NCBI RefSeq assembly: GCF_014204895.1
Contig: NZ_JACHMF010000001.1
Span: 1,116,001 to 1,180,000 of the forward strand
DNA: 64,000 nucleotides
Direction: 5' to 3'
Source of the DNA: Paractinoplanes abujensis
GTDB taxonomy: Bacteria; Actinomycetota; Actinomycetes; Mycobacteriales; Micromonosporaceae
In this document: piece by piece, positions 26,957-47,918 of the stretch
How the letters are laid out: every line of letters begins with the position of its first letter
Numbering within the stretch: the stretch's first letter is position 1
Position numbers and translations under genes: made by a program
Notes under the pieces: generated by a model
Databases searched by the model: none
What the model was told of the DNA's origin: nothing
What the model saw: the letters and a program-made list of their open reading frames with translations, nothing else

Positions 26957-29900
26957 GTGGCACCGAGCAAGGCGTTCGTGGATCCGGACAGCGTGCTGGC
27001 CCGAACCGCCCGGGAGATGCTTCTGGCCCACGCCCGGGGCCGCGGCCCCGAGGACGGCGTGACCGTGTGCCCCAGCTGCGGCGAACCCCTGCCCTGCGCG
27101 GCCGGCCGCGCCGCCGCCGAAGTCGTCGAAGCGGCCGGGCTGGCCGAGGAATCCGGCCTGATCGCGGCCTCGCGCCGAGGACTGGGGGAGCCGTACGGGG
27201 AACCGGGCTCCGGCTTCGACTTCAGCGGCGGCCCGGTGTCGGCCCCGGCCGGACCCCCGCCGTCCGGCTTCACCGCGCCGGCGGCCTTCGGTGCCGCTGA
27301 CGCCGCGGTGCCGCAGTCGCCGACGGCGTTCGGGTCCACCGATCCACTGACCGCCACTGCTTTCGGGACCTCCGCGTCGCAGCCGGCCGGACACGGGTCG
27401 CCCCTGGCTTTCGGGTCGCCCATCGACATCGCGGCCGAGGACGAGTCACGCCGGGCCGACGGCGAGAACCCCGCCACGGGCGCGGCGTACCGGAACTCGC
27501 TGTCCGGCGGCGGCCCGGTGGACCTGTCGTTCGGGACCGAGCCGGCGTCGGCCGCCCCGCCGCCGGCCCGGCTCCCCGACGACGAGCCGAGCGGCCCGCG
27601 GCTGGACTTCAGCTTCAACGGCAACAACATTCCGGCCGACGAGCCCGGCCCGCGCCCCGGCGAGCCGTCAGGTCCGAACCCGGCCGGGCCGTCGAACGCG
27701 GGCCGGGGTGCATCGTCGGGCCCTGCGTCGCCGGGGCCGAATGCGGAGTCCTCGGGCTCCGATCCGGCCGGGCCGGCGGGCTCGGGTCCGGCTGAGCCGT
27801 CGGGTTTGACGTCGGCTGGGCTGTCGGGTTCGGACCCAGGTGGGCCGTCCGGTCTGAGCTCGGCTGGGTTGCCGGGTTTGGATGCGGCTGGGTCGTCCGG
27901 TCTGAGCTCGGTTGGGTTGTCGGGTTCGGACCTGGCCGGGCCGTCTGCTCCGAACTCGGCCGGGTTGTCGGGTCCGGGGGCGGCTGGGCCGTCCGGACTC
28001 AGCTCGGCTGGGTTGTCGGGTCTGGGGGCGGCTAGGTCCTCGGGATTGGGCTCGGCGGGGTCGTCCGGTTTGGGCACGGCTGGCCAACCGGGTTCAAGCT
28101 CATCTGCGGTGCCGGGTTTGAAGGCTGCTGGGCCGTCAGGATTAGGCTCGGCCGGGGTGTCCGGTTTGGATCAGGCCGGGCACGGTGGTGTGAGTCCGGC
28201 TGGGTCGTCGGGTGCGGGGCCGGCTCGGTCGTCGGGACCGGGTGAGGCTGGGCTTTCGGACTCAAATACGGCGGGGCCGTCGGGCTTGGGTCAGGGTGGG
28301 CCGTCGGGGCTTGATCAGGCAGATGCGTCCGGTCTTGGCCAGGCTCAGGTTTCGCGGCTGGGCCTGGGCGAGCCTTCGGGTTTTCCGGGCGGGCCTGCGG
28401 GCCTGAACGAGACCGGGCCGGCCGCGATCGCCCCGGCCGGGGATTCGGAATCGGGCCCGGGTGAGCCATCGAGCCTGCGACCCGGGCCGAAGGCCGGCCC
28501 GCACGGAGCCTTGAGCCCGGGCGGTGCCACCGGCGTTTCCTCCGGGCCCGGTGGGGAACTGGGCGGCGCCGACCCGGGCGACCTTCGAGGCGAGCCGAGT
28601 CCTCCCCGCGCGGAGCCGCCCGCAGTCACCAAGCCGCCGGCGCCGCCCCTGCCGCCGGACTGGCACCAGAACCGGCCGCTGGACGCGCCCAAGTTCACCC
28701 CGGCCCGTCCCGTGGCGCGCGCCAACGGGACGAACGGGATCAACGGTGTCAACGGCGTGCCGGTGTCGCCCGCGGGTGCCCGGCCTTCCGCCGGGCCTTC
28801 CGCCGGGCCTTCGGCCGTGAACCCCGCGCCGCACCAGCCGACCGCACTCAACCAGCCGCCGCAGGCCCCGCCCGCCATCAACCAGCCCCCGCAGCCCCCG
28901 TCCGCGGTCAACCCGCCGCTGCCTCCGACACCGTTCGGCCAGTCGCCGTCGGCCGGCCAATCCGGAGGCCAGTCGCTGTCGCCCGGCCAGCCCGGGAGTC
29001 AGTCGCCGTTGGGCGGCCAGCCGGGGAGCCAGTTGCCGTCGACAGGCAACTCAGCGGGCGGGCCACTGCCGGGTAGCCAACTCGGCAGTCTCGGCCCGAC
29101 GGCCGGTCAGTCGCCCGCGGCTGGCCAGTCCGGTGGTCAGGGATCCTCGTTCGGTCACTCCGGGGCTCAGTCGCCTGTGGCCGGAGCGCTCGGGGGTCAG
29201 GGGCTCTCGGCCGGTCAGGCGCCTGCGGTCGGGGCGCTCGGCGGTCAGGGGCTCTCGGCCGGTCAGTCGCCTGTGGCCGGGGCGCTCGGGGGTCAGGGGC
29301 TCTCGGCCGGTCAGTCGCCTGTGGCCGGGGCGCTCGGCGGTCAGGGGCTCTCGAACGGTCAGTCGCCTGCGGGCGGCCACTTCGGTGGTCTGGGGCCCGC
29401 CTTGGGTCAGTCCGGGGGGCAATCGCCATCGGCCGGTCCGCAGCCGGGCCTCGGCCGTAACGCTGGTCACGAGCCGGCGGGGCCGTTCGCCTCGCAGCCG
29501 GGCCAGGGCCCGTCGGGCCTCGGCGTGTCGCAGGCTGGAGGCGCGTCGCAGGCTGGAGGCGTGTCGCAGGCTGGAGGCGCGTCGCAGGTCGGAGGGGTGT
29601 CGGAGGCGGGGGGTGTGTCGCAGGTCGGAACGGGGTCGCAAACGGGGATGGCTCCGCAAGCCATGGCCGGCTCGCATGCCGGGACGGGGCCGCAAGCCAT
29701 GACCGGCCCGCAAACCGGGGCGGCGCCGCAACCCGGCACCGAGCTGCAGGCCGGGACCGGGCCGCATGTCGGCACCGGGCCGCAATCCGGCGGCGGGCCG
29801 CAACCCGGCGGCGGGCCGCAACCCGGCGGCGGGCTGCAGGCCGGCGCCGGACCGCAGGCTGGCGGACAAAACGGATACATGCCTCACGCCGGCAATCTGG

Positions 29901-30802
29901 CCCAGCCCACCGGAGCCGGGCATGCACCGCAGGCGGGGAACGGGCTCGCGGGCGGCCCGGGGGCCGGGAGCATGACGCCGCCCGCCGGTGACGAACCGTC
30001 CGGTTTGGCCGGTCTCAGGCCGCCGGCCGGGCATCAGCCCGCGAGCAGCGGACCGTCCAGTTTGCCGTCCGGTCAGGAGCCGTCCGGTCTCGGGCAGGCC
30101 CCGAGCTATTCGGGTCGGCCGCCGGCCGGTCCGGCTGCCCCCGCCGTCCCGTCCGGTCAGGAGCCGTCCGGGCTGCCGGGCCGACCGGCGCCGAGCATGC
30201 CGGGCCAACCCGCCGACGCACTGGGGGGCCCGCAGACCGGCGGGCCGCAGACCAGCGGGCCGCAAGCCGGTGGGTCGCAAGCGGGTGGGCCGCAAGCCGG
30301 TGTGCCGCAGATCGGGGGAGCGCAGACCGGTGGGTCGCAAGCGGGTGGGCCGCAGATCGGGGGAGCGCAGATCGGTGGGTCGCAAGCGGGTGGGCCGCAA
30401 GCCGGTGGGCCGCAGACCGGCGGAGCGCAGACCGGCGGTGAGCAGGCCGGGTCCGGGCGGACCGGGGGCATCCAAAATCAGGGTGCCGCGCCTCAGGGCT
30501 CCGGCCCGAGCGGTCTGCCCGGCTTGGGCAACAGCTCGCCCCGTTTCGGTGCGGCCGGCCCCGAGCAGAACGGCGCCCCCCGTGCCGCGATGAGGACGCC
30601 GCTGGAAGCGCCCAACATGGGGCAGGTCAACCGTCCGCCCTCTGCCGGCATGTCGCCCGGCCCGGCTTCCGCCCACCACGAAAGCCCGGGTTCGGGTCCG
30701 CGTCCGGCGCGACCCAAGTTGGAGGCTCCCAACATGGGTCAGCTCAACAAGCCGCTCCACGATCGTGACCAGCCGGGTTCGCCGCATCAGCCGGAGCGGT
30801 GA
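26957..30802 (+). CDS. Giant intrinsically disordered Gly/Pro/Ser/Gln-rich protein with N-terminal Cys motif
   Basis: 1,281 residues with a GTG start. The first about 80 residues look folded: a helix (SVLARTAREMLLAHARG), then CPSCGEPLPC (Cys 38, 41, 47), which could bind zinc, then an Ala/Glu helix. The rest is low complexity. It contains 11-13-residue units around GLSSAGLSG (27800-28350), a Pro-rich stretch (28600-28950), 16-residue units around SPVAGALGGQGLSAGQ (29165-29360), and QAGG-S and GGPQ units (29530-29860, 30230-30460). The last 68 residues contain two copies of LEAPNMGQ(V/L)N(R/K)P. No signal peptide or membrane segment is visible. It lies 132 bp upstream of a SigB-type sigma factor. 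I do not recognise it; a scaffold or condensate role is only a guess. Confidence 0.8.
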   Translation: MAPSKAFVDPDSVLARTAREMLLAHARGRGPEDGVTVCPSCGEPLPCAAGRAAAEVVEAAGLAEESGLIAASRRGLGEPYGEPGSGFDFSGGPVSAPAGPPPSGFTAPAAFGAADAAVPQSPTAFGSTDPLTATAFGTSASQPAGHGSPLAFGSPIDIAAEDESRRADGENPATGAAYRNSLSGGGPVDLSFGTEPASAAPPPARLPDDEPSGPRLDFSFNGNNIPADEPGPRPGEPSGPNPAGPSNAGRGASSGPASPGPNAESSGSDPAGPAGSGPAEPSGLTSAGLSGSDPGGPSGLSSAGLPGLDAAGSSGLSSVGLSGSDLAGPSAPNSAGLSGPGAAGPSGLSSAGLSGLGAARSSGLGSAGSSGLGTAGQPGSSSSAVPGLKAAGPSGLGSAGVSGLDQAGHGGVSPAGSSGAGPARSSGPGEAGLSDSNTAGPSGLGQGGPSGLDQADASGLGQAQVSRLGLGEPSGFPGGPAGLNETGPAAIAPAGDSESGPGEPSSLRPGPKAGPHGALSPGGATGVSSGPGGELGGADPGDLRGEPSPPRAEPPAVTKPPAPPLPPDWHQNRPLDAPKFTPARPVARANGTNGINGVNGVPVSPAGARPSAGPSAGPSAVNPAPHQPTALNQPPQAPPAINQPPQPPSAVNPPLPPTPFGQSPSAGQSGGQSLSPGQPGSQSPLGGQPGSQLPSTGNSAGGPLPGSQLGSLGPTAGQSPAAGQSGGQGSSFGHSGAQSPVAGALGGQGLSAGQAPAVGALGGQGLSAGQSPVAGALGGQGLSAGQSPVAGALGGQGLSNGQSPAGGHFGGLGPALGQSGGQSPSAGPQPGLGRNAGHEPAGPFASQPGQGPSGLGVSQAGGASQAGGVSQAGGASQVGGVSEAGGVSQVGTGSQTGMAPQAMAGSHAGTGPQAMTGPQTGAAPQPGTELQAGTGPHVGTGPQSGGGPQPGGGPQPGGGLQAGAGPQAGGQNGYMPHAGNLAQPTGAGHAPQAGNGLAGGPGAGSMTPPAGDEPSGLAGLRPPAGHQPASSGPSSLPSGQEPSGLGQAPSYSGRPPAGPAAPAVPSGQEPSGLPGRPAPSMPGQPADALGGPQTGGPQTSGPQAGGSQAGGPQAGVPQIGGAQTGGSQAGGPQIGGAQIGGSQAGGPQAGGPQTGGAQTGGEQAGSGRTGGIQNQGAAPQGSGPSGLPGLGNSSPRFGAAGPEQNGAPRAAMRTPLEAPNMGQVNRPPSAGMSPGPASAHHESPGSGPRPARPKLEAPNMGQLNKPLHDRDQPGSPHQPER
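29165..29360 (+). repeat. Tandem 48-bp coding repeats in the disordered protein
   Basis: About four copies of a 48-bp unit encoding SPVAGALGGQGLSAGQ (variant APAVGALGGQGLSAGQ). The copies are close to identical at DNA level, so this block expanded recently compared with the diverged repeats elsewhere in the gene. Confidence 0.85.
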
Positions 30803-32922: not shown

Positions 32923-34773
32923 TCAGCCGGGATCGACCGCTCCTGTCTCCATCACAATGATGGCACCCTCGGGTTGGGTGCCGCCCTCGCGGCGGCGCAG
33001 CGGAGTGCAGGCCACCCGCACCGAGATCGTGCGGCCACGCCGGTTCACTGCGTCGACCTGCAGTTCCCCGCCGCTGGCCTCGTTGCCCAGGGCGGACCGC
33101 AGGATCGGCCGCAGCCGCTCGATGGGCAGCCCGATGTCGAGGTTGAGGAAGTGCTGGCCGATCACTTCGCTCGACCGCAGGCCCCACAGGTCCTCGGCGC
33201 GGCGGTTCCACATCCGGATGCGCAGGTCGGGGTCGACCACCGCGACGCCGGCCTCCATACTGGTCAGCACCGTCTCGAGGAAGTCGTTGGCCTCGTCGAG
33301 CTGAGTGCTCGAGATGCGCAGCTGGTCGTTGATGCTCTGCAGCTCGTCGTTGGTGGACTGGAGCTCCTCGTTCATCGTCTCCAGTTCCTCGTTGGTCGAC
33401 TGGAGCTCCTCGTTGGTGGTCTCCAGCTCCTCGACCGTCGACTGCAGTTCCTCGTTGGTGGTCTCCAGTTCCTCGTTGGTCGACTGCAGTTCCTCGTACG
33501 CCGCCTCGAGCTGCTGGTTGGCGTGCTCCAGCTCGTCCTTGAGGCGCCGGGAGGCGGTCACGTCGTGGAAGATCAGGTTGACCCCGAGCAGGCTGCCGTC
33601 CATGCCGGCCAGCGGGCTGATCTGCACCTCGAGGTTGATCTGCTCGCCGCCGCGCTGGTAGTCGACGTCGGGGATGCGCAGCGTGCGCCGTTCGAGCTGG
33701 GCCTGTTCGATGTAACGCCGCAGCTCGACGGGCCGGTAGGACAGGTCGAGGTCGCGGAACGGACGGCCGATGTCGCGGGAGGACACCCCGAACAGCTTCT
33801 CCAGCTGCCGGTTGGAGAGCGCCACGTGGCCGTCGGCGGTCAGCGTGAGCTGGGCCAGCGGGTTGGCCGCGAACGCCTCGTTGCGCAGCTCGTCGAGGCC
33901 GGTGACCGGGGCGCCGCTGTTGGCCGGCGGCTCGGCGAAGGCGATGCCGGGCCGGGCGTAGAGGCGCGGCACCCGGCGGAACACGCGGCGCTTGAGGTCG
34001 ATCGGGGTGAACAGGCTGGCGTGGCTGAGCAGCATCTCGGCTTTGCCGAGGAACAGCACGCCCTCGTCGCGCAGCGCGAAGTGGAACCGGCCGAGGATCT
34101 TGGCCTGGGTCTCGGCGTTGAAGTACATCAGGGTGTTGCGGCAGGTCAGCAGGTCGATGCGGGAGATCGGGGCGTCCTGCACCAGGTCGTTGCGGCCGAA
34201 GATGACCGAGCGGCGCATGTCCTTGCGGAACGCCTGCCGGCCGTTGACCGGCTCGAAGTAGCGCTCGGCCAGTTCGGGCGGCACGGCCTCCATCTCGCGA
34301 TCCCCGTACGTCGCCTGGCGCGCGTCGTTGAGCTGCTCCTCGTCGACGTCAGTAGCGTAGATCTTGACCCGGTCCTTGAACGCCTCCAGCCCGATCAGCT
34401 CGGCCAGCACCATCGCCAGCGTGTACGCCTCCTCGCCCGAGGCGCAACCGGCGCACCAGATCCGGATCGGCGCGTCGGCCGGTTTGGCCGCCAGCATCGG
34501 GCCCAGCACGTCCTTGGCCAGGTAGTCCCAGGCGTCGGGGTCGCGGAAGAAGGCGGTGACGTTGATCAGGATGGTGTTGAACAGCGTGGTGAACTCGTCC
34601 GGATGGACCTGCAGGTAGTCCACGTACTCCTGGTAGTCGGCCGCGCCGACCTGACTCATCCGCCGGTCGACCCGCCGGATCAGGCTGGATCTCTTGTAGC
34701 CCGTGAAGTCGAAGCCGCGCGACTCTTTCAGATAGACGAGCAGCGCTTCGAAGTGAGGGTCGGCGGGTTGCAC
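32923..34773 (-). CDS. CheR-type methyltransferase with PAS domains and heptad coiled coil
   Basis: 616 residues. A CheR methyltransferase domain (about 1-265) has FFRDPDAWDYL, the SAM motif IWCAGCASGEEAYTLAM, and LLTCRNTLMYF. A PAS-like domain (about 285-410) is followed by a regular coiled coil of alternating ELQSTNE and ELETTNE heptads (about 410-490) and a second PAS domain (about 490-600; DFLETVLTSMEAGVAVVDPD). There is no histidine kinase domain and no visible chemoreceptor, CheB or CheA gene in the window. CheR-PAS proteins of this kind occur beside Rsb-type regulators, so it may be a sensor or adaptor for the neighbouring STAS/kinase proteins rather than for chemotaxis. That role is inference. 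Confidence 0.88.
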   Translation of the reverse strand: MQPADPHFEALLVYLKESRGFDFTGYKRSSLIRRVDRRMSQVGAADYQEYVDYLQVHPDEFTTLFNTILINVTAFFRDPDAWDYLAKDVLGPMLAAKPADAPIRIWCAGCASGEEAYTLAMVLAELIGLEAFKDRVKIYATDVDEEQLNDARQATYGDREMEAVPPELAERYFEPVNGRQAFRKDMRRSVIFGRNDLVQDAPISRIDLLTCRNTLMYFNAETQAKILGRFHFALRDEGVLFLGKAEMLLSHASLFTPIDLKRRVFRRVPRLYARPGIAFAEPPANSGAPVTGLDELRNEAFAANPLAQLTLTADGHVALSNRQLEKLFGVSSRDIGRPFRDLDLSYRPVELRRYIEQAQLERRTLRIPDVDYQRGGEQINLEVQISPLAGMDGSLLGVNLIFHDVTASRRLKDELEHANQQLEAAYEELQSTNEELETTNEELQSTVEELETTNEELQSTNEELETMNEELQSTNDELQSINDQLRISSTQLDEANDFLETVLTSMEAGVAVVDPDLRIRMWNRRAEDLWGLRSSEVIGQHFLNLDIGLPIERLRPILRSALGNEASGGELQVDAVNRRGRTISVRVACTPLRRREGGTQPEGAIIVMETGAVDPG

Positions 34774-40259: not shown

Positions 40260-41141
40260 ATGGGCACGATCCAGATCGGCACCGCCTCGTGGACCGACCG
40301 GACGCTGCTGGCCTCGGGGTGGTATCCGGCGAGCGCCGACACCCCCGAGAAGCGACTGGCCTACTACGCCGGCCAGTTCCCGGTGGTCGAGGTCGACTCG
40401 ACGTATTACGGACCGCCGGCCGAGCAGACGAGCCGGCTCTGGGCGCAGCGCACCCCCGACGGCTTCACCTTCAATATCAAGGCGTTCAGCCTGCTGACCG
40501 GTCATCCGACCAAGGTGTCGGCGATCTACAAGGACCTGCGGCCCGAGACGGACAAGAAGAACATCTACCCCGGTGATCTGCCGGCTCAGGCATACGAGGA
40601 AGTCTGGTCCCGGTTCCTGTCGGCCCTCGACCCGCTGGCCGAGGCGGGCAAGCTGGGCGCGGTGCTCTTCCAGTTCCCGCCGTGGTTCGGCATCCGCAAG
40701 TCCAACAAGGAATACCTTCTCGAGGTCGCCGCCCGCTGCCGGCCGATCCGGCCGGTGTTCGAGTTCCGCAACGCCAGCTGGTTCGACGGCGCCAACCAGA
40801 ACGAGACCCTCGACTTTCTGCGCGCCCACAAGCTGGCCTTCGTCGGCGTCGACATGCCTCAGGGGCACAAGAGTTCGGTGCCGCCGGTGCTGGCCGCCAC
40901 CGCGGGCCTGGCCGTGGTGCGCTTCCACGGCCACAGCGACAAATGGACCAGCAAGGACATCCACGAGAAATTCGGCTACGAGTACTCGCGCCAGGAACTG
41001 GCCGCGTGGGCGCCGCGCCTGAGATCGCTGGCCGCCGAGGCCGACACGACCCAGGTCTTCATGAACAACTGCTACTCGGACTACGCCCAGCGCAACGCCA
41101 CCGAGCTGATCGAGCTGCTAGATGGCGTCGAAGGGGACTGA
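40260..41141 (+). CDS. DUF72-family protein (first copy)
   Basis: 293 residues. DUF72 TIM-barrel features include IGTASWTD at the N-terminus, FPVVEVDSTYYGPP, PDGFTFNIKAFSLLTGH, LGAVLFQFPPWF, RPVFEFRNASWF, VDMPQGH and VVRFHGHS, with FMNNCYSDYAQRNA at the end. The function of the family is unproven. It ends convergently, overlapping the aminotransferase gene by 24 bp. A second, shorter DUF72 gene lies beyond that aminotransferase on the opposite strand. Confidence 0.9.
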   Translation: MGTIQIGTASWTDRTLLASGWYPASADTPEKRLAYYAGQFPVVEVDSTYYGPPAEQTSRLWAQRTPDGFTFNIKAFSLLTGHPTKVSAIYKDLRPETDKKNIYPGDLPAQAYEEVWSRFLSALDPLAEAGKLGAVLFQFPPWFGIRKSNKEYLLEVAARCRPIRPVFEFRNASWFDGANQNETLDFLRAHKLAFVGVDMPQGHKSSVPPVLAATAGLAVVRFHGHSDKWTSKDIHEKFGYEYSRQELAAWAPRLRSLAAEADTTQVFMNNCYSDYAQRNATELIELLDGVEGD

Positions 41142-41909
41142 GGCCCACGTCTCGGTCATGATCGCGGCCAGTTTGTCGCCGGCCGGGTACTTCAGGTCGT
41201 CGATCGAGGCGATCTCCTGCCGCACGGTGCGCGAGTTGACGGCGACGGCCCCGGTGAAGTCGGGCAGCTCCGACGCCGGCACCGGGCGGATCGTCCACGG
41301 CACCCCCTGCATCGTCATGGCGATCTGCAGCAGCACCATCGTGACGCCCTTGAGCATCGGCGCCTGCGGCCACACCACCTCGTCGCCCTTGAGGAACGCC
41401 ACGTTCCACGTCGTGCCCTCGCGCACCAGCCCGTCCGGGCCGACCGAGAGCGCGTCGTCGAACCCGGCCGCCACGGCCAGCCGCTGCGCCCGCCACTGGG
41501 CCATCGTGGCCGCGTGCTTGTGCTCGGGCCAGTCGCGCCGGTACGCCGGGTCGATGCGCACCCGGATCGGCGGCTGCGGCTCGTCGCTCCCCGGGTCGCC
41601 CACCGCCACCACCACGTCGGGCGGCCCGACGAGGTCGGCCCCGGGCACGTAGGAGACGCGGACCGAGGCGTCCGTCGCGCCGTCCAGCGCATGCAGGATG
41701 AGCTCACGCAGCCGGTGCTCGTCGTCGAGGCCGGGCCGCCACCCGAAGAACTCCTCGTTGCCGTCGGCCAGCCGGGCGAAATGCAGGGCCAGACCCCGTA
41801 CGCCCCCCGCCCGCACCTGCATCGAGGTGAAGTGGCCGTAGTTGAGCGTGGCCATGCGGAGCGTGTCGGCGGTGTCCGGGGCCCGGCCGTTCAGTTCGAG
41901 GAAGCGCAC
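41118..41909 (-). CDS. Class IV PLP-dependent aminotransferase-like protein
   Basis: 263 residues. It resembles branched-chain aminotransferase/aminodeoxychorismate lyase family proteins. It has LNYGHFTSMQVRAGGVRGLA and HFARLADGNEEFFG near the N-terminus, a Lys in WPEHKHAATMAQWRAQ as the likely PLP Schiff-base residue, GLVREGTTWNVAFLKG and GVTMVLLQIAM. The substrate is not clear; pabC-like activity is one possibility. It overlaps the second DUF72 gene upstream by 19 bp, so the two are probably co-transcribed. Confidence 0.85.
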   Translation of the reverse strand: MRFLELNGRAPDTADTLRMATLNYGHFTSMQVRAGGVRGLALHFARLADGNEEFFGWRPGLDDEHRLRELILHALDGATDASVRVSYVPGADLVGPPDVVVAVGDPGSDEPQPPIRVRIDPAYRRDWPEHKHAATMAQWRAQRLAVAAGFDDALSVGPDGLVREGTTWNVAFLKGDEVVWPQAPMLKGVTMVLLQIAMTMQGVPWTIRPVPASELPDFTGAVAVNSRTVRQEIASIDDLKYPAGDKLAAIMTETWASVPFDAI

Positions 41910-42637
41910 GTCATCACCTTAAGGCCCCGCCTCACCGCCATAGCGGACATCGTGTCGGCATCGGTCACGGCCGCCCCGCCGGGATCGTTGTTGAAATACA
42001 CGAAATTGTCCCGTACGGGGGGAAGCCGCTCCAGCCACGACGCGAGCGCGCCCCGCCCGTAGCGCGGCCACGGTTCGGCCCGCCCCTCGTGCAGGCGCAG
42101 ATAGCCGAAATCGGCGGTCGTCCACAGCGGAGTGATCGGGCGGCCCTTCCGGTCGGCCCAGCACAGCGCCGCGTTGTGCCCTTCCAGCAGCCGGCGGCAG
42201 TCGTCGGTCCACCACGTGTCGTGCCGCGGCTCGACCGCCACCCGCGTCCCGGCCGGGATCAGCGACAGCGTCTCGTCCAGCGCGTCCAGGTCGGCCTTCA
42301 TCGTGGGCGGCAGCTGCAGCAGTACCGGGCCGAGCTTGTCGCCCAGCGCACTCGCCCGCTCGAAGAACCGGGACACCGGCTCGGCCGGCTCGCGCAGCCG
42401 CTTGATGTGGGTCAGGTAGCGGCTCATCTTCACCGCGACGCAGAACCCATCCGGGGTGCGCTGACGCCACTGCTCGAACGTCGACCGCTCGGGCAGCCGG
42501 TAGAACGCGTTGTTGACCTCGACGGTGGGGAAGTGCCCGGCGAAGTGCTCCAGCCACAGCCGCTGCGGCAGCTTCGGCGGATAGAGCCGGCCCTTCCAGT
42601 CCCGGTACTGCCAGCCGGAGGTTCCGATCCACAGCAT
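41891..42637 (-). CDS. DUF72-family protein (second copy)
   Basis: 248 residues. Family blocks: LWIGTSGWQYRDWKGRLYPP, FPTVEVNNAFYRLP, RTPDGFCVAVKMSRYLTHI, LGPVLLQLPPTMK, RVAVEPRHDTWW and DNFVYFNNDPGG. It differs clearly from the copy at 40260, so this is not a recent duplication. It is the first gene of a minus-strand pair with the class IV aminotransferase. Confidence 0.9.
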   Translation of the reverse strand: MLWIGTSGWQYRDWKGRLYPPKLPQRLWLEHFAGHFPTVEVNNAFYRLPERSTFEQWRQRTPDGFCVAVKMSRYLTHIKRLREPAEPVSRFFERASALGDKLGPVLLQLPPTMKADLDALDETLSLIPAGTRVAVEPRHDTWWTDDCRRLLEGHNAALCWADRKGRPITPLWTTADFGYLRLHEGRAEPWPRYGRGALASWLERLPPVRDNFVYFNNDPGGAAVTDADTMSAMAVRRGLKVMTCASSN

Positions 42638-42729
42638 CCGGGCCGGATACCCCGGTCACAGGCCGGTTAGACCTGATGATCACGGGGTACCTCGCCGGTG
42701 CTGTCACGTCCACCGAACAAGGAGTTCCC

Positions 42730-42984
42730 ATGGCACTGAACGACGACGACATCACTTCGGCCTCGGGCACCGGCGCGGGCGAGGGTCCGGCCGACGGTGG
42801 CGCGAACCCGGGCGGTCACGACGGCGGCGCGGACGGGTCGGCGGGCGAGGGTCCGGCCGACGGCGGCGCGAACCCGGACGGTCACGACGGCGGCGCGGAC
42901 GGCAGCGCCGACGGCGAGGGCCCGGCCGACGGTGGCGCCAACCCCGGCGGTCACGACGGCGGCGCCGACGGCTCCGCGAACTGA
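42730..42984 (+). CDS. Small triple-repeat peptide, candidate substrate of the adjacent JmjC oxygenase
   Basis: 84 residues. The N-terminal 18 or so residues (MALNDDDITSASGTGAG) are followed by three copies of a 22-23-residue unit whose core is GGANPGGHDGGADGS, each with a single His in GGH or DGH. DNA repeat starts are at 42781, 42847 and 42916. The gene has a good GGAG site upstream and ends 2 bp before the ATG of a JmjC-type oxygenase gene. It has no Cys, Lys or Arg, no signal peptide and no membrane segment. The layout of a short leader plus repeated core beside a modifying enzyme looks like a ribosomally made, modified peptide. Alternatively it may simply be a disordered acidic protein. 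Confidence 0.75.
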   Translation: MALNDDDITSASGTGAGEGPADGGANPGGHDGGADGSAGEGPADGGANPDGHDGGADGSADGEGPADGGANPGGHDGGADGSAN

Positions 42985-42986
42985 CA

Positions 42987-44234
42987 ATGCCCGGAACCAC
43001 GAACGACGCGCCGGGCGGCTCCCGCCCGGCGCTGTCGCGCGCCGTGGCCGTCGAGCCGGGCAAGTTCGCCGCCGCGTACTGGGGGCGGGCCCCGCTGCTC
43101 TCCCGGGCCGGTGAGCTGGCCGGGCCGGACGGCTTCGCCGACCTGCTCTCCCCGGCCGCGGTCGATGAACTCCTCAGCCGGCGCGGGCTGCGCACTCCCT
43201 TCCTGCGCGTCGCCCAGCAGGGCAAGGTGCTGCCGGCCGGCCGCTTCACCGGCGGCGGCGGGGCGGGCGCCGAGATCGGTGATCAGGTCGTCGACGACCA
43301 GGTGATGCGGATCTACGCGGAGGGCGCCACCCTTGTCCTCCAGGGCCTGCACCGCCTGTGGCCGCCGCTGATCGACTACAGCCGCCGCCTGGGCGCCGAG
43401 CTGCGCCGGCCGCTGCAGGTCAACGCCTATCTGACCCCGCCCGGCAGCCAGGGTTTCAGCACCCACTACGACACGCACGACGTGTTCGTGCTGCAGGTCG
43501 ACGGGACCAAGCGCTGGCGGCTGCACGAGCCGGTGCTGGCCGACCCGCTGGAGAAGCAGGCCTGGGGCGGGCACGCCGACGAGGTGGCCGCGACCGCGCA
43601 GGGCGAACCCGCGATGGACATCGTGCTCTCCCCGGGTGACGCGCTCTACCTGCCGCGCGGCTGGCTGCACTCGGCCGAGGCGCTCGGTCACCGGTCGCTG
43701 CACCTGACCATCGGCGTACGGGCCCTCACCCGCTACGCCGTGGTCGAGGAGCTGCTGGCGCTGGCCGCCGCGGACGGGCGTTTGCGGGCCACCCTGCCGT
43801 ACGGGGTGGATGTCGCCGACCCCGACGCGATCGAGCCTGAACTGACCGAGACCGTCGAAGCGCTGCGGGACTGGCTCACCGGTGTCGAACCGGCCGAGGT
43901 GGCCGCGCGGCTGCGGGCCCGGGACTGGCCCTCGGCCCGGCCCGAACCGGTCAGCCCGCTGGCCCAGCTGGACTTCGCAGCCGGGCTCGGCGCCGACGAC
44001 CGGGTGCGGATGCGCGAAGGGCTGCGCTGGCAGCTCGCCGGCGACGGGCCCGAGCACGTGGTGCTGCGCCTGGTCGGGCGCACGATGCGGTTCCCGGCCT
44101 ACTGCGCGCCGGCTCTGCGGGCAGCGTTCGGCCCCGACCCCGTACGGGTGGGGGATCTGCCCTTGGAGGACGACGCCGACAAGCTGGTGCTGGCCCGGCG
44201 GCTGCTCCACGAGGCCCTGGTCGTGCCCGCCTAG
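42987..44234 (+). CDS. JmjC-type (cupin_4) 2-oxoglutarate oxygenase
   Basis: 415 residues. It belongs to the ribosomal-oxygenase-like cupin_4 family. Predicted iron ligands are His160 and Asp162 in FSTHYDTHDVF and His228 in LPRGWLHSAEA; the substrate-side segment VDGTKRWRLHEP lies between. A C-terminal helical/winged region follows. Known relatives include E. coli YcfD (arginine hydroxylation of uL16) and human MINA53 and NO66 (histidine hydroxylation of ribosomal proteins). Coupling to the repeat peptide gene, 2 bp upstream, makes that peptide the likely partner. Substrate and residue are inference. Confidence 0.88.
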   Translation: MPGTTNDAPGGSRPALSRAVAVEPGKFAAAYWGRAPLLSRAGELAGPDGFADLLSPAAVDELLSRRGLRTPFLRVAQQGKVLPAGRFTGGGGAGAEIGDQVVDDQVMRIYAEGATLVLQGLHRLWPPLIDYSRRLGAELRRPLQVNAYLTPPGSQGFSTHYDTHDVFVLQVDGTKRWRLHEPVLADPLEKQAWGGHADEVAATAQGEPAMDIVLSPGDALYLPRGWLHSAEALGHRSLHLTIGVRALTRYAVVEELLALAAADGRLRATLPYGVDVADPDAIEPELTETVEALRDWLTGVEPAEVAARLRARDWPSARPEPVSPLAQLDFAAGLGADDRVRMREGLRWQLAGDGPEHVVLRLVGRTMRFPAYCAPALRAAFGPDPVRVGDLPLEDDADKLVLARRLLHEALVVPA

Positions 44235-44941
44235 GTGGTGCGCAGCAGGGCCACCAGCACACCGGCCGTGACCAGGCCGGTGATCAGCACAGTGGCCACC
44301 GTCGCGGCGTCCAGTCCGGCCCCGCGGCGGTCGGCCACCCGCTTGGCCCCGACCACTGCCAGCACCGGGCAGGCCAGCAGCACGAGCAGCGCCACCACGG
44401 GCAACGCGTCCTTCCACGTGCCGTCCGTCGCGCCGCCGCCGTTCTCGCGCAGCACGTGGTTGCCGATCGCGCCGGCCACTCCGCCCAGGAACCCGAACAC
44501 CGCGAACAGCATCTTGACGCCGCTGTTGATCGGGCGGGCCGGGGCCGAGTACTTCACCTTCGTGGCCACCTCGTCGAGGTAGTCGCCGGCCTCCCGATCG
44601 CTGCGCTGCCGGGGGATGGCGGCCGGGGGCACCGTACGCCCGTAGCGCTCCGCCACCGGCCCCACCTTGTGCACGTATTCCGACCACAAGCCCGCGGCCC
44701 GCGCGTCGACCTCCTCCAGGCGGCGCTGCGCGAACGACACGGCTTGCTTGGCCTCCGCGACGGCCTGCTCGGCGCCCTGCACGGCCTCGTCGGCCGCGGC
44801 CAGCCGGCCCTCGTGCCACTGCTCGGCCTCGGCCCGCAGCACGGCCGCCTCCTCGTCGAGCGTGGTCAACCGGCGCAGCACGCTGCGGTAGTCGGCGGTC
44901 TCGAAGTCGGCCGGCTGCAGTCCCCCCTGCGCGTGCGTCAC
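44231..44941 (-). CDS. Membrane protein with N-terminal coiled coil, last gene of the FtsK-like operon
   Basis: 236 residues. The N-terminal about 95 residues form an Ala/Glu-rich coiled coil (RLTTLDEEAAVLRAEAEQW, QAVAEAKQAVSFAQRRLEEV). Then come a soluble segment, a first membrane pass (MLFAVFGFLGGVAGAIG), and two more near the C-terminus (ALPVVALLVLLACPVLAVVG, VATVLITGLVTAGVLVALL). The GTG start overlaps the stop of the repeat-protein gene (GTGA) and has GGAGG 8 nt upstream. I do not recognise the family. As the only membrane protein in the operon it may anchor the ATPase complex. Confidence 0.78.
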   Translation of the reverse strand: MTHAQGGLQPADFETADYRSVLRRLTTLDEEAAVLRAEAEQWHEGRLAAADEAVQGAEQAVAEAKQAVSFAQRRLEEVDARAAGLWSEYVHKVGPVAERYGRTVPPAAIPRQRSDREAGDYLDEVATKVKYSAPARPINSGVKMLFAVFGFLGGVAGAIGNHVLRENGGGATDGTWKDALPVVALLVLLACPVLAVVGAKRVADRRGAGLDAATVATVLITGLVTAGVLVALLRTT

Positions 44942-45291
44942 GATCTGAGCCTCCTGGGCATGCCCTCCTGGCCCTCACGGGCGAGGCCGTCCGGATGTGC
45001 GGCTGCGTGAGGCTCGGTGCGGTCGGTCATGCTGGGCCTCCTGGGCATGCCCTCCTGGCCCTCACGGGCGAGGCCGTCCGCGCGTCCGGCTGCGTGAAGC
45101 TCGGTGCAGTCGGTCATGCTGAGCCCCCTGGGCATGCCCTCCTGGCCCTCACGGGCGAGGCCGTCCGCGCGTCCGGCTGCGTGAAGCTCGGTGCAGTCGG
45201 TCATGCTGGGCCTCCTGGGCATGCCCTCCTGGCCCTCACGGGCGAGGCCGTCCGCGCGTCCGGCTGCGTGAAGCTCGGTGCAGTCGGTCAT
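44938..45291 (-). CDS. Repeat protein of four 29-residue units
   Basis: 117 residues made of four tandem units, each starting MTDCTELHAAGRADGLAREG and ending QEGMPRRPS or similar. The last unit is more diverged (MTDRTEPHAAAHPDG). The ATG overlaps the FtsK-like stop (ATGA) and the TGA overlaps the next gene's GTG, so it reads as a coupled operon member. Each unit also ends in a Shine-Dalgarno-like sequence (AGGAGG or AGGGGG) followed 6 nt later by the next unit's ATG. Translation could therefore restart at 45204, 45117 and 45030. Alternatively the repeats may be only an expanded intergenic element that happens to be open. Confidence 0.6.
   Translation of the reverse strand: MTDCTELHAAGRADGLAREGQEGMPRRPSMTDCTELHAAGRADGLAREGQEGMPRGLSMTDCTELHAAGRADGLAREGQEGMPRRPSMTDRTEPHAAAHPDGLAREGQEGMPRRLRS
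44951..45291 (-). repeat. Four near-identical 87-bp tandem repeats
   Basis: The landmark CTGGGCATGCCCTCCTGGCC lies at 44954, 45041, 45128 and 45215 on the plus strand, exactly 87 bp apart. The three units nearest the FtsK-like gene are nearly identical, while the one nearest the membrane protein gene differs more. The period is a multiple of three. Confidence 0.92.
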
Positions 45292-47918
45292 GCCACACCG
45301 TACGGGATGATGACCTCCGCGCCGCGGTGCACCGAGCGGTCGAAATGCAGGGCGCGCCAAGGCCGGGGGTACCAGGCGGGGGCGCCGGTGCCCGGGTAGA
45401 ACGGCGCGAGCTCGCTGCCGTGCACGTCGAGCGCGACCCAGGCGCCGATCGCGTCGGTACGTGAGCCGGGGCCGCCCAGCGCGTCACGCAGCAGGCCCGC
45501 CCCGCGCCACCAGCCCGCCACGTGGATGCGCCGCTCCGGGCCCTGCCGCAGGATCGTGCGCAGCTGCTCGGCCGCGCCCTTGCCGCCGGGCAGCGCGTCG
45601 GCCGCGTAGATGAACAGGAAGTGGTGCCGGTCGGCGGGCCAGGACGCCGCTGCCTCGGCCGCCGCCTCCTCCAGGATCCAGTCGGCGTTCTCCTGCTCGT
45701 ACCACCCGCAGTCGGGCAGCGTCTCGCACAGCGCCTTGGCCGCCGGGCGGGCGTCCGGGTCGAGGCACAGGATCGAGAAGCGGGCGCTCTCCTTCGGGAA
45801 CTGCGCGGCCAGCGACAGGGCGGCCGTGGCCAGCACCGCGCACGCCTCCTCCAGGCGGGTGCCGAGCACGGCCAGGTTGCGTCCGGGTGCGCGCCGCAAC
45901 ACCGTACGGGCGGATCGGGCCTCGACGTCGATCGTCTCGCCCAGCAGCACCACCGGCGCCGGGTTGGCCTCAGCCGGGCCCAGCCGCCGGAAGTCGGGGC
46001 TGTCGGCCAGCCGGGGCACCACGTCACCGTCGAACAGCCGCGGCGGGCCCAGGTCGGCCGGGCGGCGCCGCCACAGCCGGTGCTGCAGCGCGTTCCACCG
46101 TTCCCGGTCGCCCGCGGCGGGCACCCGCACGACCCGGTTGGCCTCGACCGCGCCCGAGTCGGCGTTGACCACCGCGTGGTAGCGGGGCAGCGACTCGGCC
46201 GCGGTGTTCTGCTCGGCCAGCACCCGCCGGGCCCGGGGCAGCGCGATGCGCAGCGAGAACTGCGCGACCAGCGCCGGCCGGCCCCACAGCGCCTCGATGC
46301 CGGACACGTCCTGGCTGGCCAGGATCAGGTGAATGCCCTGCGAGCGGCCGCGGCGGGCCAGGTCTTCGAGCAGGTCGACGGCCTCCTTCTCGACCGCGTC
46401 GCGCCCGGACAGCAGCACCTGGAACTCGTCGATCACGGCCACGATCCGCGGCCACGAACCCTGCGGATCCTCGGCCCGCAGCTCGGCCAGGTTGGTGACC
46501 TCGTGCCGTTTCGCCGCGTCGGCCCGCCGGCGCAGCTCGTCGCCCAGGAACCGCAGCAGGGCCAGCCCGAACTCGCGGTCGGTGTTGACGTTGACCCCGA
46601 CCAGGCGCACGTGCGGCAGCCAGGTCTGGTCGCGCCGGCCCGGGGCGAACCGCGCGAACGACACGCCCTCCTTGAAGTCGAGCAGATAGAAGGCCAGCTC
46701 GGCGGGGGAGTAGCGGGCGGCCAGGGCGCCCATCCAGGCGTAGATCAGGTTGGTCTTGCCGGTGCCCGACGGGCCGGCGATCAGGGCGTGCGGCGGATAG
46801 TCGGACAGGGTCACCGGCACGGGCATGCCCTGCGGGCTGTCACCGAGCGGCGCGGTCAGCCCGGTGGCCGCGCTCTCCTGCCACTCCACCTGGGGCAACA
46901 GGCTGTCCAGGGCTACCGGTGCGGGGCCGGCCGCGACTGCCTCGGCGATCCGGCGGCACGTCGCCGCCACCACCGCCTGCGGCGGGCCGGGATCCAGCCG
47001 TACGGGCAGAGCGCCCGCGCTGCTCATCCGGGCGCGGTCGCCCGGCTGCGCGGTGATGAACTCGACGCCGTCGGTGGCCGCCACCGGCATGCCCTGGATG
47101 ACCAGGTGCACGCCGCAGGCCGCCCCCGTGCGCAGCAGGCGCTGCAGCTGAGCCTGCTCGGCCCGGCTGAGCTCGCCCGCACCGAGCAGCACGGCGATCC
47201 GCCACGGCTCGGGCCGCCGGTGGGTGGCCGCGTTCAACTCGCGCAGCGACGTGTATTCGCCGGCCAGCACCGTCTCGTTGATCCGGCGCACCTGATCGGT
47301 CAGGTCGTCGAGCAGCGCGCCCAGCCCGCCCGGCCCGACGAAGGTGAGCACGTTGGCCGGTGCCAGCGGGGCAAACCGGGCCAGCCCGCCGCCCAGATGC
47401 TCGGGGTCGTAGCCGATCAGCTGCACCGCCCCCGGCGGCGCGGTGCCCAGCGCGCGCAGCAGCAGCCCGGCCACCACCTCGTCGCCCAGCGTGCGGTCGC
47501 CGCGCACCACGACGTGGCCGCGGTCGAGCAGGGGGACGAGCGCCGGCACGTCCTCCGGGTGCGGCAGCAGCAGCCGGCCGACGCGCAGCTCGGCGGCCCG
47601 GTCGAGCGGGGTCGCCTGCCAGTCGTCCCACGGGTCACCGGCGGCGCCGGGGGCGGCCCGGTCGGCGGCCGCGGCGGCCGCGCCCGCGTAGGCGGCCAGG
47701 TCGGTCTTGTGCTGATGGTCGATCTCGGCCATCCGGGTCTCCAGCGCCCCGGCCAGCTTGGCCCGCCGGGCCTGGGCCGCCTCGACCACCCGGCGGCGGC
47801 GTTCGACGGCCCGGCCGTATTCGTAGCGGGCGGCCTCGAGGGCGTTCGCGGCGGCGCCGAGCGCGTGCGACAGCCCGGCCCGGATGTCCATCACCTGCTG
47901 CGCGGTCGAGTCAGACAT
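45288..47918 (-). CDS. FtsK/SpoIIIE-type P-loop ATPase
   Basis: 876 residues, fully soluble. The N-terminal about 75 residues are a coiled coil (ANALEAARYEYGRAVERRRR). An early Rossmann-like domain follows. The central FtsK/SpoIIIE domain has Walker A AGPSGTGKTNLIYAW (about residue 380), LLDFKEGVSFARF, Walker B VAVIDEFQVLLSG (about 493) and ILASQDVSG. A degenerate third domain (VLLGETIDVEA, AVLGTRLEEACAVLATAALS) lacks a clear P-loop. There are no transmembrane segments and no gamma-type DNA-recognition domain. Multi-domain FtsK-like ATPases drive type VII secretion (EccC) or DNA pumping. The small helical gene upstream recalls type VII clusters, but no WXG motif is present. Confidence 0.88.
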   Translation of the reverse strand: MSDSTAQQVMDIRAGLSHALGAAANALEAARYEYGRAVERRRRVVEAAQARRAKLAGALETRMAEIDHQHKTDLAAYAGAAAAAADRAAPGAAGDPWDDWQATPLDRAAELRVGRLLLPHPEDVPALVPLLDRGHVVVRGDRTLGDEVVAGLLLRALGTAPPGAVQLIGYDPEHLGGGLARFAPLAPANVLTFVGPGGLGALLDDLTDQVRRINETVLAGEYTSLRELNAATHRRPEPWRIAVLLGAGELSRAEQAQLQRLLRTGAACGVHLVIQGMPVAATDGVEFITAQPGDRARMSSAGALPVRLDPGPPQAVVAATCRRIAEAVAAGPAPVALDSLLPQVEWQESAATGLTAPLGDSPQGMPVPVTLSDYPPHALIAGPSGTGKTNLIYAWMGALAARYSPAELAFYLLDFKEGVSFARFAPGRRDQTWLPHVRLVGVNVNTDREFGLALLRFLGDELRRRADAAKRHEVTNLAELRAEDPQGSWPRIVAVIDEFQVLLSGRDAVEKEAVDLLEDLARRGRSQGIHLILASQDVSGIEALWGRPALVAQFSLRIALPRARRVLAEQNTAAESLPRYHAVVNADSGAVEANRVVRVPAAGDRERWNALQHRLWRRRPADLGPPRLFDGDVVPRLADSPDFRRLGPAEANPAPVVLLGETIDVEARSARTVLRRAPGRNLAVLGTRLEEACAVLATAALSLAAQFPKESARFSILCLDPDARPAAKALCETLPDCGWYEQENADWILEEAAAEAAASWPADRHHFLFIYAADALPGGKGAAEQLRTILRQGPERRIHVAGWWRGAGLLRDALGGPGSRTDAIGAWVALDVHGSELAPFYPGTGAPAWYPRPWRALHFDRSVHRGAEVIIPYGVA

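Follow-up and report, generated by a model that had tools for sequence, protein, structure and literature searches.

NO66 and MINA53, dimeric proteins with C-terminal domains, share with the enzyme described here a PF08007 catalytic domain, the HxD...H triad and equivalents of its residues K175 and Y148. They differ from it in that the position of NO66 Ser421 is occupied by Gly here and that the partner here is an adjacent repeat peptide, a kind of partner that, to our knowledge, has not been described for NO66 or MINA53. The uL16 arginine hydroxylase YcfD/RoxA shares the fold family and the iron triad but is very distant in the tree, has Ile and Arg at the Y148 and K175 positions in its E. 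coli version, and targets arginine, a residue missing from the peptide encoded here.

PesHI, of nitrilobacillin biosynthesis, is an MNIO and belongs to a different enzyme system. As proposed below for our pair, it acts on Asp of a precursor, albeit on one only: excerpts of its description report stereoselective hydroxylation at the single site Asp21 (PMC13060819). The available parts of the work on biphenomycin-like RiPP pathways describe BipG and PbsQ as JmjC/cupin enzymes that hydroxylate a precursor ornithine (PMC12707348, PMC12257519), which resembles our proposal in that a JmjC/cupin oxygenase acts on a residue of a ribosomal precursor. These pathways are multi-enzyme clusters with radical SAM and MNIO enzymes and a protease, whereas here a single enzyme accompanies a multi-repeat peptide.

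Layout of the locus and the oxygenase

The window, that is, the whole stretch of DNA analysed, comprises 64,000 nucleotides from the soil actinomycete Paractinoplanes abujensis. In it, a peptide gene is followed by an oxygenase gene, with 2 bp between the stop codon of the former and the ATG of the latter:

42666..42690, + strand: sigma-B-type promoter-like element GTTAGA-N13-GGGTAC (sequence match)
42719..42724, + strand: AAGGAG, likely ribosome-binding site of the peptide gene (from sequence; ATG 5 nt further on)
42730..42984, + strand: peptide gene, 84 aa, proposed substrate/precursor (ATG at 42730, stop at 42982-42984)
42730..42780, + strand: leader-like N-terminal segment, residues 1-17, MALNDDDITSASGTGAG (acidic DDD(I/M)-like start)
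42781..42846, + strand: repeat unit 1, 22 residues (tandem array)
42847..42915, + strand: repeat unit 2, 23 residues
42916..42981, + strand: repeat unit 3, 22 residues
42987..44234, + strand: JmjC/cupin_4 (PF08007) Fe(II)/2-oxoglutarate-type oxygenase, 415 aa (ATG at 42987; PF08007 profile)

Coordinates and translation confirm the first-pass annotation in its description of an 84-residue peptide that consists largely of three units of 22-23 residues, lacks Arg and ends 2 bp before a cupin_4 gene. A scan of the four flanking genes bears out its statement that no peptidase is nearby and revealed neither a leader protease nor an exporter among them; distant cousins of the locus (type C, below) have a prolyl oligopeptidase gene upstream. 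With a precursor gene made up of leader-like and core segments beside the gene for a modifying enzyme, the pair is a candidate RiPP system, in which a JmjC protein would serve as the one tailoring enzyme.

We propose, with a probability of roughly 0.6, that the locus encodes a one-operon modified peptide and that the oxygenase hydroxylates the beta carbons of Asp residues in D-G-G-A elements. Both genes would be transcribed as one unit and specify a ribosomal peptide that is modified after translation; the enzyme would recognise this peptide, perhaps via the acidic DDD(I/M) leader, and turn it into a chain of beta-hydroxyaspartates, with extra units providing extra hydroxylation sites. If this proposal is true, such peptides would be a family frequent in actinomycetes, with one JmjC enzyme per multi-repeat peptide, and would supply a natural substrate for bacterial PF08007 proteins, which some sources name NO66-type demethylase/hydroxylase or L16 hydroxylase. 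Because only two small genes are involved, the proposal is directly testable.

The enzyme matches PF08007 at 103.9 bits (cut-off 22), including the HxD...H triad, and is the sole PF08007 match in the P. abujensis genome. Its iron ligands H160, D162 and H228, earlier described as intact, are kept in all 55 aligned relatives, E. coli YcfD among them, and K175, which we take to be the 2OG lysine position, is present in 54 of the 55, with Arg in YcfD. The nearest solved structure is NO66. Profile E-values are 3.6e-35 for NO66, 6.1e-28 for MINA53 and 4.6e-10 to 1.1e-9 for L16 arginine hydroxylases, and the match pairs residues 22-409 of the enzyme with 38-445 of NO66, reaching the NO66 C terminus. 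In the enzyme tree, the end branch of YcfD is 4.24 long, against a median of 0.29; this distance and the weaker E-values of the L16 arginine hydroxylases dispose of the earlier reservation that the enzyme might cluster with YcfD-type uL16 hydroxylases.

The units of the peptide begin at residues 18, 40 and 63, with spacings of 22 and 23, and Tandem Repeats Finder places a 66-bp array (3.0 copies) at 42775-42978. The peptide is more than a chance feature: comparison of the three units yielded 13.5 synonymous differences over 46.7 sites versus 6.5 nonsynonymous differences over 133.3 sites, and the pooled pN/pS was 0.27 (55 non-independent pairs from 11 orthologous peptides). The protein collection contains 151 homologues of the peptide, for which no Pfam or NCBIfam family was found at E-values up to 1; the literature searched (open-licence PMC) likewise contained, among the matches listed, neither a description of the family nor a match to its repeat strings. 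The counts below refer to 132 distinct peptides, which should not be read as independent events; there is overlap between the relative, named and class samples. This set excludes remote and class loci examined separately (e.g. L196, L199, L202, L205, L210 and L213). Three loci were dropped beforehand (the partial L139 and L080, and L134 with its run of N), L142 and L181, with a misread start, were entered once as L142x, and the starts of L071, L072, L166 and L184 were set by eye. The DDD(I/M)-like acidic start is found in most of the 132 peptides (the pattern used fails in four), and 1264 of the 1570 core Asp residues fall within D(G/S)(G/S)A. The peptides of L153, L173, L175 and L205 are largely runs of DGGA.

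Several other features of the window may be recorded here. Adjoining the pair, at 40260-42637, a gene for a class IV aminotransferase is flanked by two DUF72 (PF01904) genes on opposite strands. The interval that separates the gene after the pair from the next large ORF contains, at 44945-45293, an 87-bp sequence in four near-identical tandem copies (95% matches), with more than one frame open. At 27753-30438, tandem repeats rich in GC and with many different periods (12-96 bp) form a dense cluster, perhaps in a gene for a repetitive protein, and a 21/42 bp tandem repeat is present in several copies at 33318-33521.

Joint occurrence of enzyme and peptide

Within the genus (36 genomes, including that of the window), the orthologous enzyme is present in 32 genomes, all of which have the peptide, and both are absent from the other four (G019, G021, G026 and G029), G021 and G029 having remote enzyme homologues only. 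In 24 genomes that represent other families of the order, the enzyme was found 13 times, in each case with an Asp-rich or repetitive ORF directly upstream, as judged by eye from translated frames. A single-sequence peptide search recovered just three of these 13 loci (G042, G047 and G052) because the repeats diverge. A composition rule, applied with starts placed by homology, finds a peptide upstream in 77 of 80 named loci, the exceptions being L111, L157 and L161, with only 73, 175 and 117 nt of upstream sequence. In a control on the named loci, the rule fired for none of 466 further large ORFs and for 55 of 72 enzyme ORFs, the latter count being limited because the mechanically longest start often falls upstream of the peptide.

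A class sample of 296 genomes contained 50 enzyme matches at E 1e-108 or better, the window included (the truncated enzyme of G154 and further remote homologues were left out), and 48 of these have an Asp-rich upstream peptide. When the window peptide was searched against the same sample, 19 genomes were positive, all within the 96 that are enzyme-positive and none among the 200 that are enzyme-negative. The two exceptions, L208 and L209 of a single genus, fall within the DGGA clade and have an acidic, non-repetitive upstream ORF and no Suc_Fer-like gene, which we count against Asp hydroxylation; the two ORFs share a C-terminal stretch. Taken over the genus, order, named and class samples, these counts bear out the expectation that the oxygenase normally occurs with such a peptide gene.

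Enzyme clade and peptide type agree. The type labels change six times on the enzyme tree, against a mean of 24.1 after shuffling, and as low a number was obtained in 0 of 200 shuffles; this tree includes 28 DGGA-type enzymes, 17 of its 52 inner branches are open, its bootstrap is not settled, and L233 and L234 were labelled partnerless despite a short upstream ORF with SDSDGSDG. As judged from sequence, the enzyme-peptide cassette is real, conserved and co-diversifying, and the pair, recurring as it does in many actinomycetes, has the look of a modified-peptide family that has been overlooked. The SDSDGSDG ORFs upstream of the remote PF08007 enzymes of L233 and L234 are perhaps a further Asp-rich partner type.

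The same pattern bears on the possibility that the enzyme is a ribosomal oxygenase acting on uL2, uL15 or uL16, with the peptide as a regulator or bystander. Such a role would be in keeping with the nearest characterised relatives, which are ribosomal oxygenases, and with the enzyme being the only PF08007 match in its genome, but it leaves the joint absence from 4 of 36 genomes unexplained, and YcfD is remote in the tree. We consider this explanation highly unlikely.

Neighbouring genes may be regulated together even when they do not encode an enzyme and its substrate, a point that we also count against Asp hydroxylation. The peptide could be an unmodified, acidic and disordered stress peptide (hydrophilin-like or metal-buffering), with the oxygenase acting elsewhere. 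Its simple D/G/A composition, with Cys and Trp absent from all 132 cores, is compatible with such a role, as are the putative sigma-B-type promoter and a second peptide copy in G023 (L076, near 4000), which lies about 19 kb away from the pair and in whose 8.7-kb locus no enzyme homologue was found. However, joint presence and absence, conserved adjacency and the agreement of enzyme clade with peptide type all argue against this alternative, which we deem improbable. Another second copy (L081, in G032) ends 75 nt from the contig end.

The promoter-like element GTTAGA-N13-GGGTAC at 42666-42690 is the sole + strand match in the window. By sequence match, it conforms to the sigma-B-type promoter as given in excerpts of PMC8346170 (-35 GTTT or GNNT, -10 GGG-A), where Table 2 lists SCO5555p, a Streptomyces sigma-B-type promoter with identical hexamers and N13, as SigG/K/M-dependent; a similar motif appears in the available part of a report on sigma-H promoters of Actinoplanes SE50/110 (PMC11205660). 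Elements of the form GTT(A/T) or GGTT to GGGTA stand in front of the peptide gene in 24 of 37 Actinoplanes-clade regions (shuffle mean 0.19) and 35 of 38 Micromonospora-clade regions (shuffle mean 0.29), but in only 7 of 57 regions elsewhere (shuffle mean 0.1), and GTTAGA-N12-15-GGGTAC is found in 40 of 83 Micromonosporaceae regions. The evidence for a putative sigma-B-type promoter covers the Micromonosporaceae, not the whole group of pair-bearing bacteria. A scan of 42500-44500 found no sigma-70 promoter or terminator, and the main text of the M. smegmatis SigF paper (PMC4694148) mentions neither cupin nor sucrase. An IdeR/DmdR iron box was considered and rejected, the best matches to the 19-mer having 7-11 mismatches, no better than shuffled sequence.

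The likeliest target residue

Repeat units were gathered at up to five mismatches to the window consensus, with the tested His column exempt (308 units from 96 peptides). The three Asp columns hold Asp in 308, 308 and 307 of the 308 units, and the His column holds His in 195, the others having Q, R, V, T, E, A, N or S; with seven mismatches allowed (315 units, His in 196), the picture was unchanged. The expectation that repeat number would vary while the His stayed fixed was borne out in its first half only. Asp is present in all 132 cores; His is absent from 19, Asn from 62 and both from 10. Because Gly and Ala are also present in every core and Pro and Ser are each absent from just one, being universal is not enough to set Asp apart. 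The side chains on which JmjC hydroxylases act include those of Asn, Asp, His, Lys and Arg, and we prefer Asp because it is the only one of these residues that is universal. We take Asp to be the likeliest acceptor, and Asp beta-hydroxylation appears to be a better inference than His hydroxylation. The first-pass annotation had proposed the repeated His, or alternatively Asp or Asn, as the hydroxylated residue; the counts do not bear out His as the fixed target, and the earlier interpretation is supported in part. In favour of Asp hydroxylation we count co-presence, upstream adjacency, the agreement of tree and type, Asp in all cores, the intact triad, the conserved K175, Asp-rich partners even outside the DGGA group, and the precedent of BipG and PbsQ.

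If the enzyme were instead a His hydroxylase, it would act in this lineage on the single His of each unit. NO66 and MINA53, the nearest solved relatives, hydroxylate His, and His outnumbers every other residue at its column and occurs in all three units of the window. However, that column drifts to Q, R and V, and beyond the 19 His-free cores there are further His-free partners outside the set of 132 (L196, L199, L202, L205, L210 and L213, among others). L125, of Micromonospora avicenniae, is a natural pair free of His, and in the Blastococcus peptide of L153 His is confined to the spacers. According to the excerpts of PMC9994133, NO66 and MINA53 are narrow in target residue, Arg, Asn or Gln replacing His not being efficiently hydroxylated by the human enzymes (Asp is absent from the quoted panel), and Tyr328 and Ser421 of NO66 hold the substrate His. 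The equivalent of Tyr328 is Y148, kept in 54 of 55 aligned sequences (Ile in E. coli YcfD), a conservation that favours His and that, together with NO66 being the nearest solved structure, we count against Asp. At the position of Ser421 the enzyme has G243 (Gly in 54 of the 55 sequences and Thr in the other), so that the Tyr is present but not the Ser; Gly is also found at this position in YcfD and other paralogues. As read from the alignment, G243 argues against NO66-type contacts but gives nothing in favour of Asp. On balance, we regard His hydroxylation as unlikely.

A resemblance of NPxGHDGG to the uL2 motif NPxxHPHGGG (NPIDHPHGGG in this genome) was considered as mimicry and rejected: under the Rpl8 205-224 numbering in the excerpt available, His216 is not the histidine of NPVEH.

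Third genes and partners of other design

The cassette also has a wider form with three genes: outside the Micromonosporaceae the enzyme gene is usually followed by one for a Suc_Fer-like protein (PF06999), with a 4-bp overlap in many loci; L152, of Modestobacter, is an example. A regular expression for the Suc_Fer cluster motif, which matched 11 of 24 non-Micromonosporaceae loci, missed Pfam-confirmed members and was replaced by a small profile. This profile, built from eight proteins whose own loci are among those counted, detects the gene in 12 of 13 named and 10 of 11 order-level loci (L063-L073) outside the Micromonosporaceae; among class loci the gene follows the enzyme in 21 of 30 and 17 of 20. 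Beside the pair in Micromonosporaceae it is absent (0 of 67 named loci), and PF06999 occurs anywhere in the genome in only 2 of the 36 genomes of the genus.

Enzymes that branch outside the DGGA clade have Asp-rich partners of different design (L072, L073, L210 and L213; types B and C). Among 20 remote homologues, seven loci have a DGDATD-like type B partner, and exactly these seven have the Suc_Fer-like gene; another six lack an Asp-rich partner by the composition rule. The wider enzyme family is not always accompanied by an Asp-rich partner, and we count these six against Asp hydroxylation. The type C peptide, which is short and ends in DSDGTDSSSDFI, was found in all 16 genomes searched; in 15 of them it shares a contig with the enzyme and immediately precedes it. 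A FhuF-like gene is located on the contig and strand of the enzyme, within 6.4 kb, in 15 of the 16 genomes (all but G178), with other genes intervening in about half. The FhuF-like protein matches FhuF_C at 29.3 bits (cut-off 20.5), while PF06276 and the NCBIfam equivalog are below their cut-offs.

Suc_Fer-like proteins are known from yeast Apd1 to bind [2Fe-2S], and FhuF_C is a 2Fe-2S domain according to its Pfam title. Such proteins might act as reductants of a ferric product or maintain the iron of the oxygenase in its reduced state. A doubtful extension of our proposal is that the product is a gene-encoded, Fe(III)-chelating polymer of beta-hydroxyaspartate, made under stress and served by a [2Fe-2S] protein as reductase, namely the Suc_Fer-like one in types A and B and the FhuF-like one in type C. 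Such a product would either store iron or be the ribosomal equivalent of siderophores that contain beta-hydroxyaspartate. If iron chemistry is what the recurrent [2Fe-2S] partner reflects, this would be an unusual route to a metal-binding polymer.

In type C, a prolyl oligopeptidase-like gene lies upstream in the five loci inspected of 11 and was checked against Pfam in one. Type C loci including L237, L238, L239, L241 and L246 contain this gene, the peptide and the PF08007 enzyme, with the FhuF-like gene nearby. From its gene content, this distant cluster looks like a RiPP cluster of its own.
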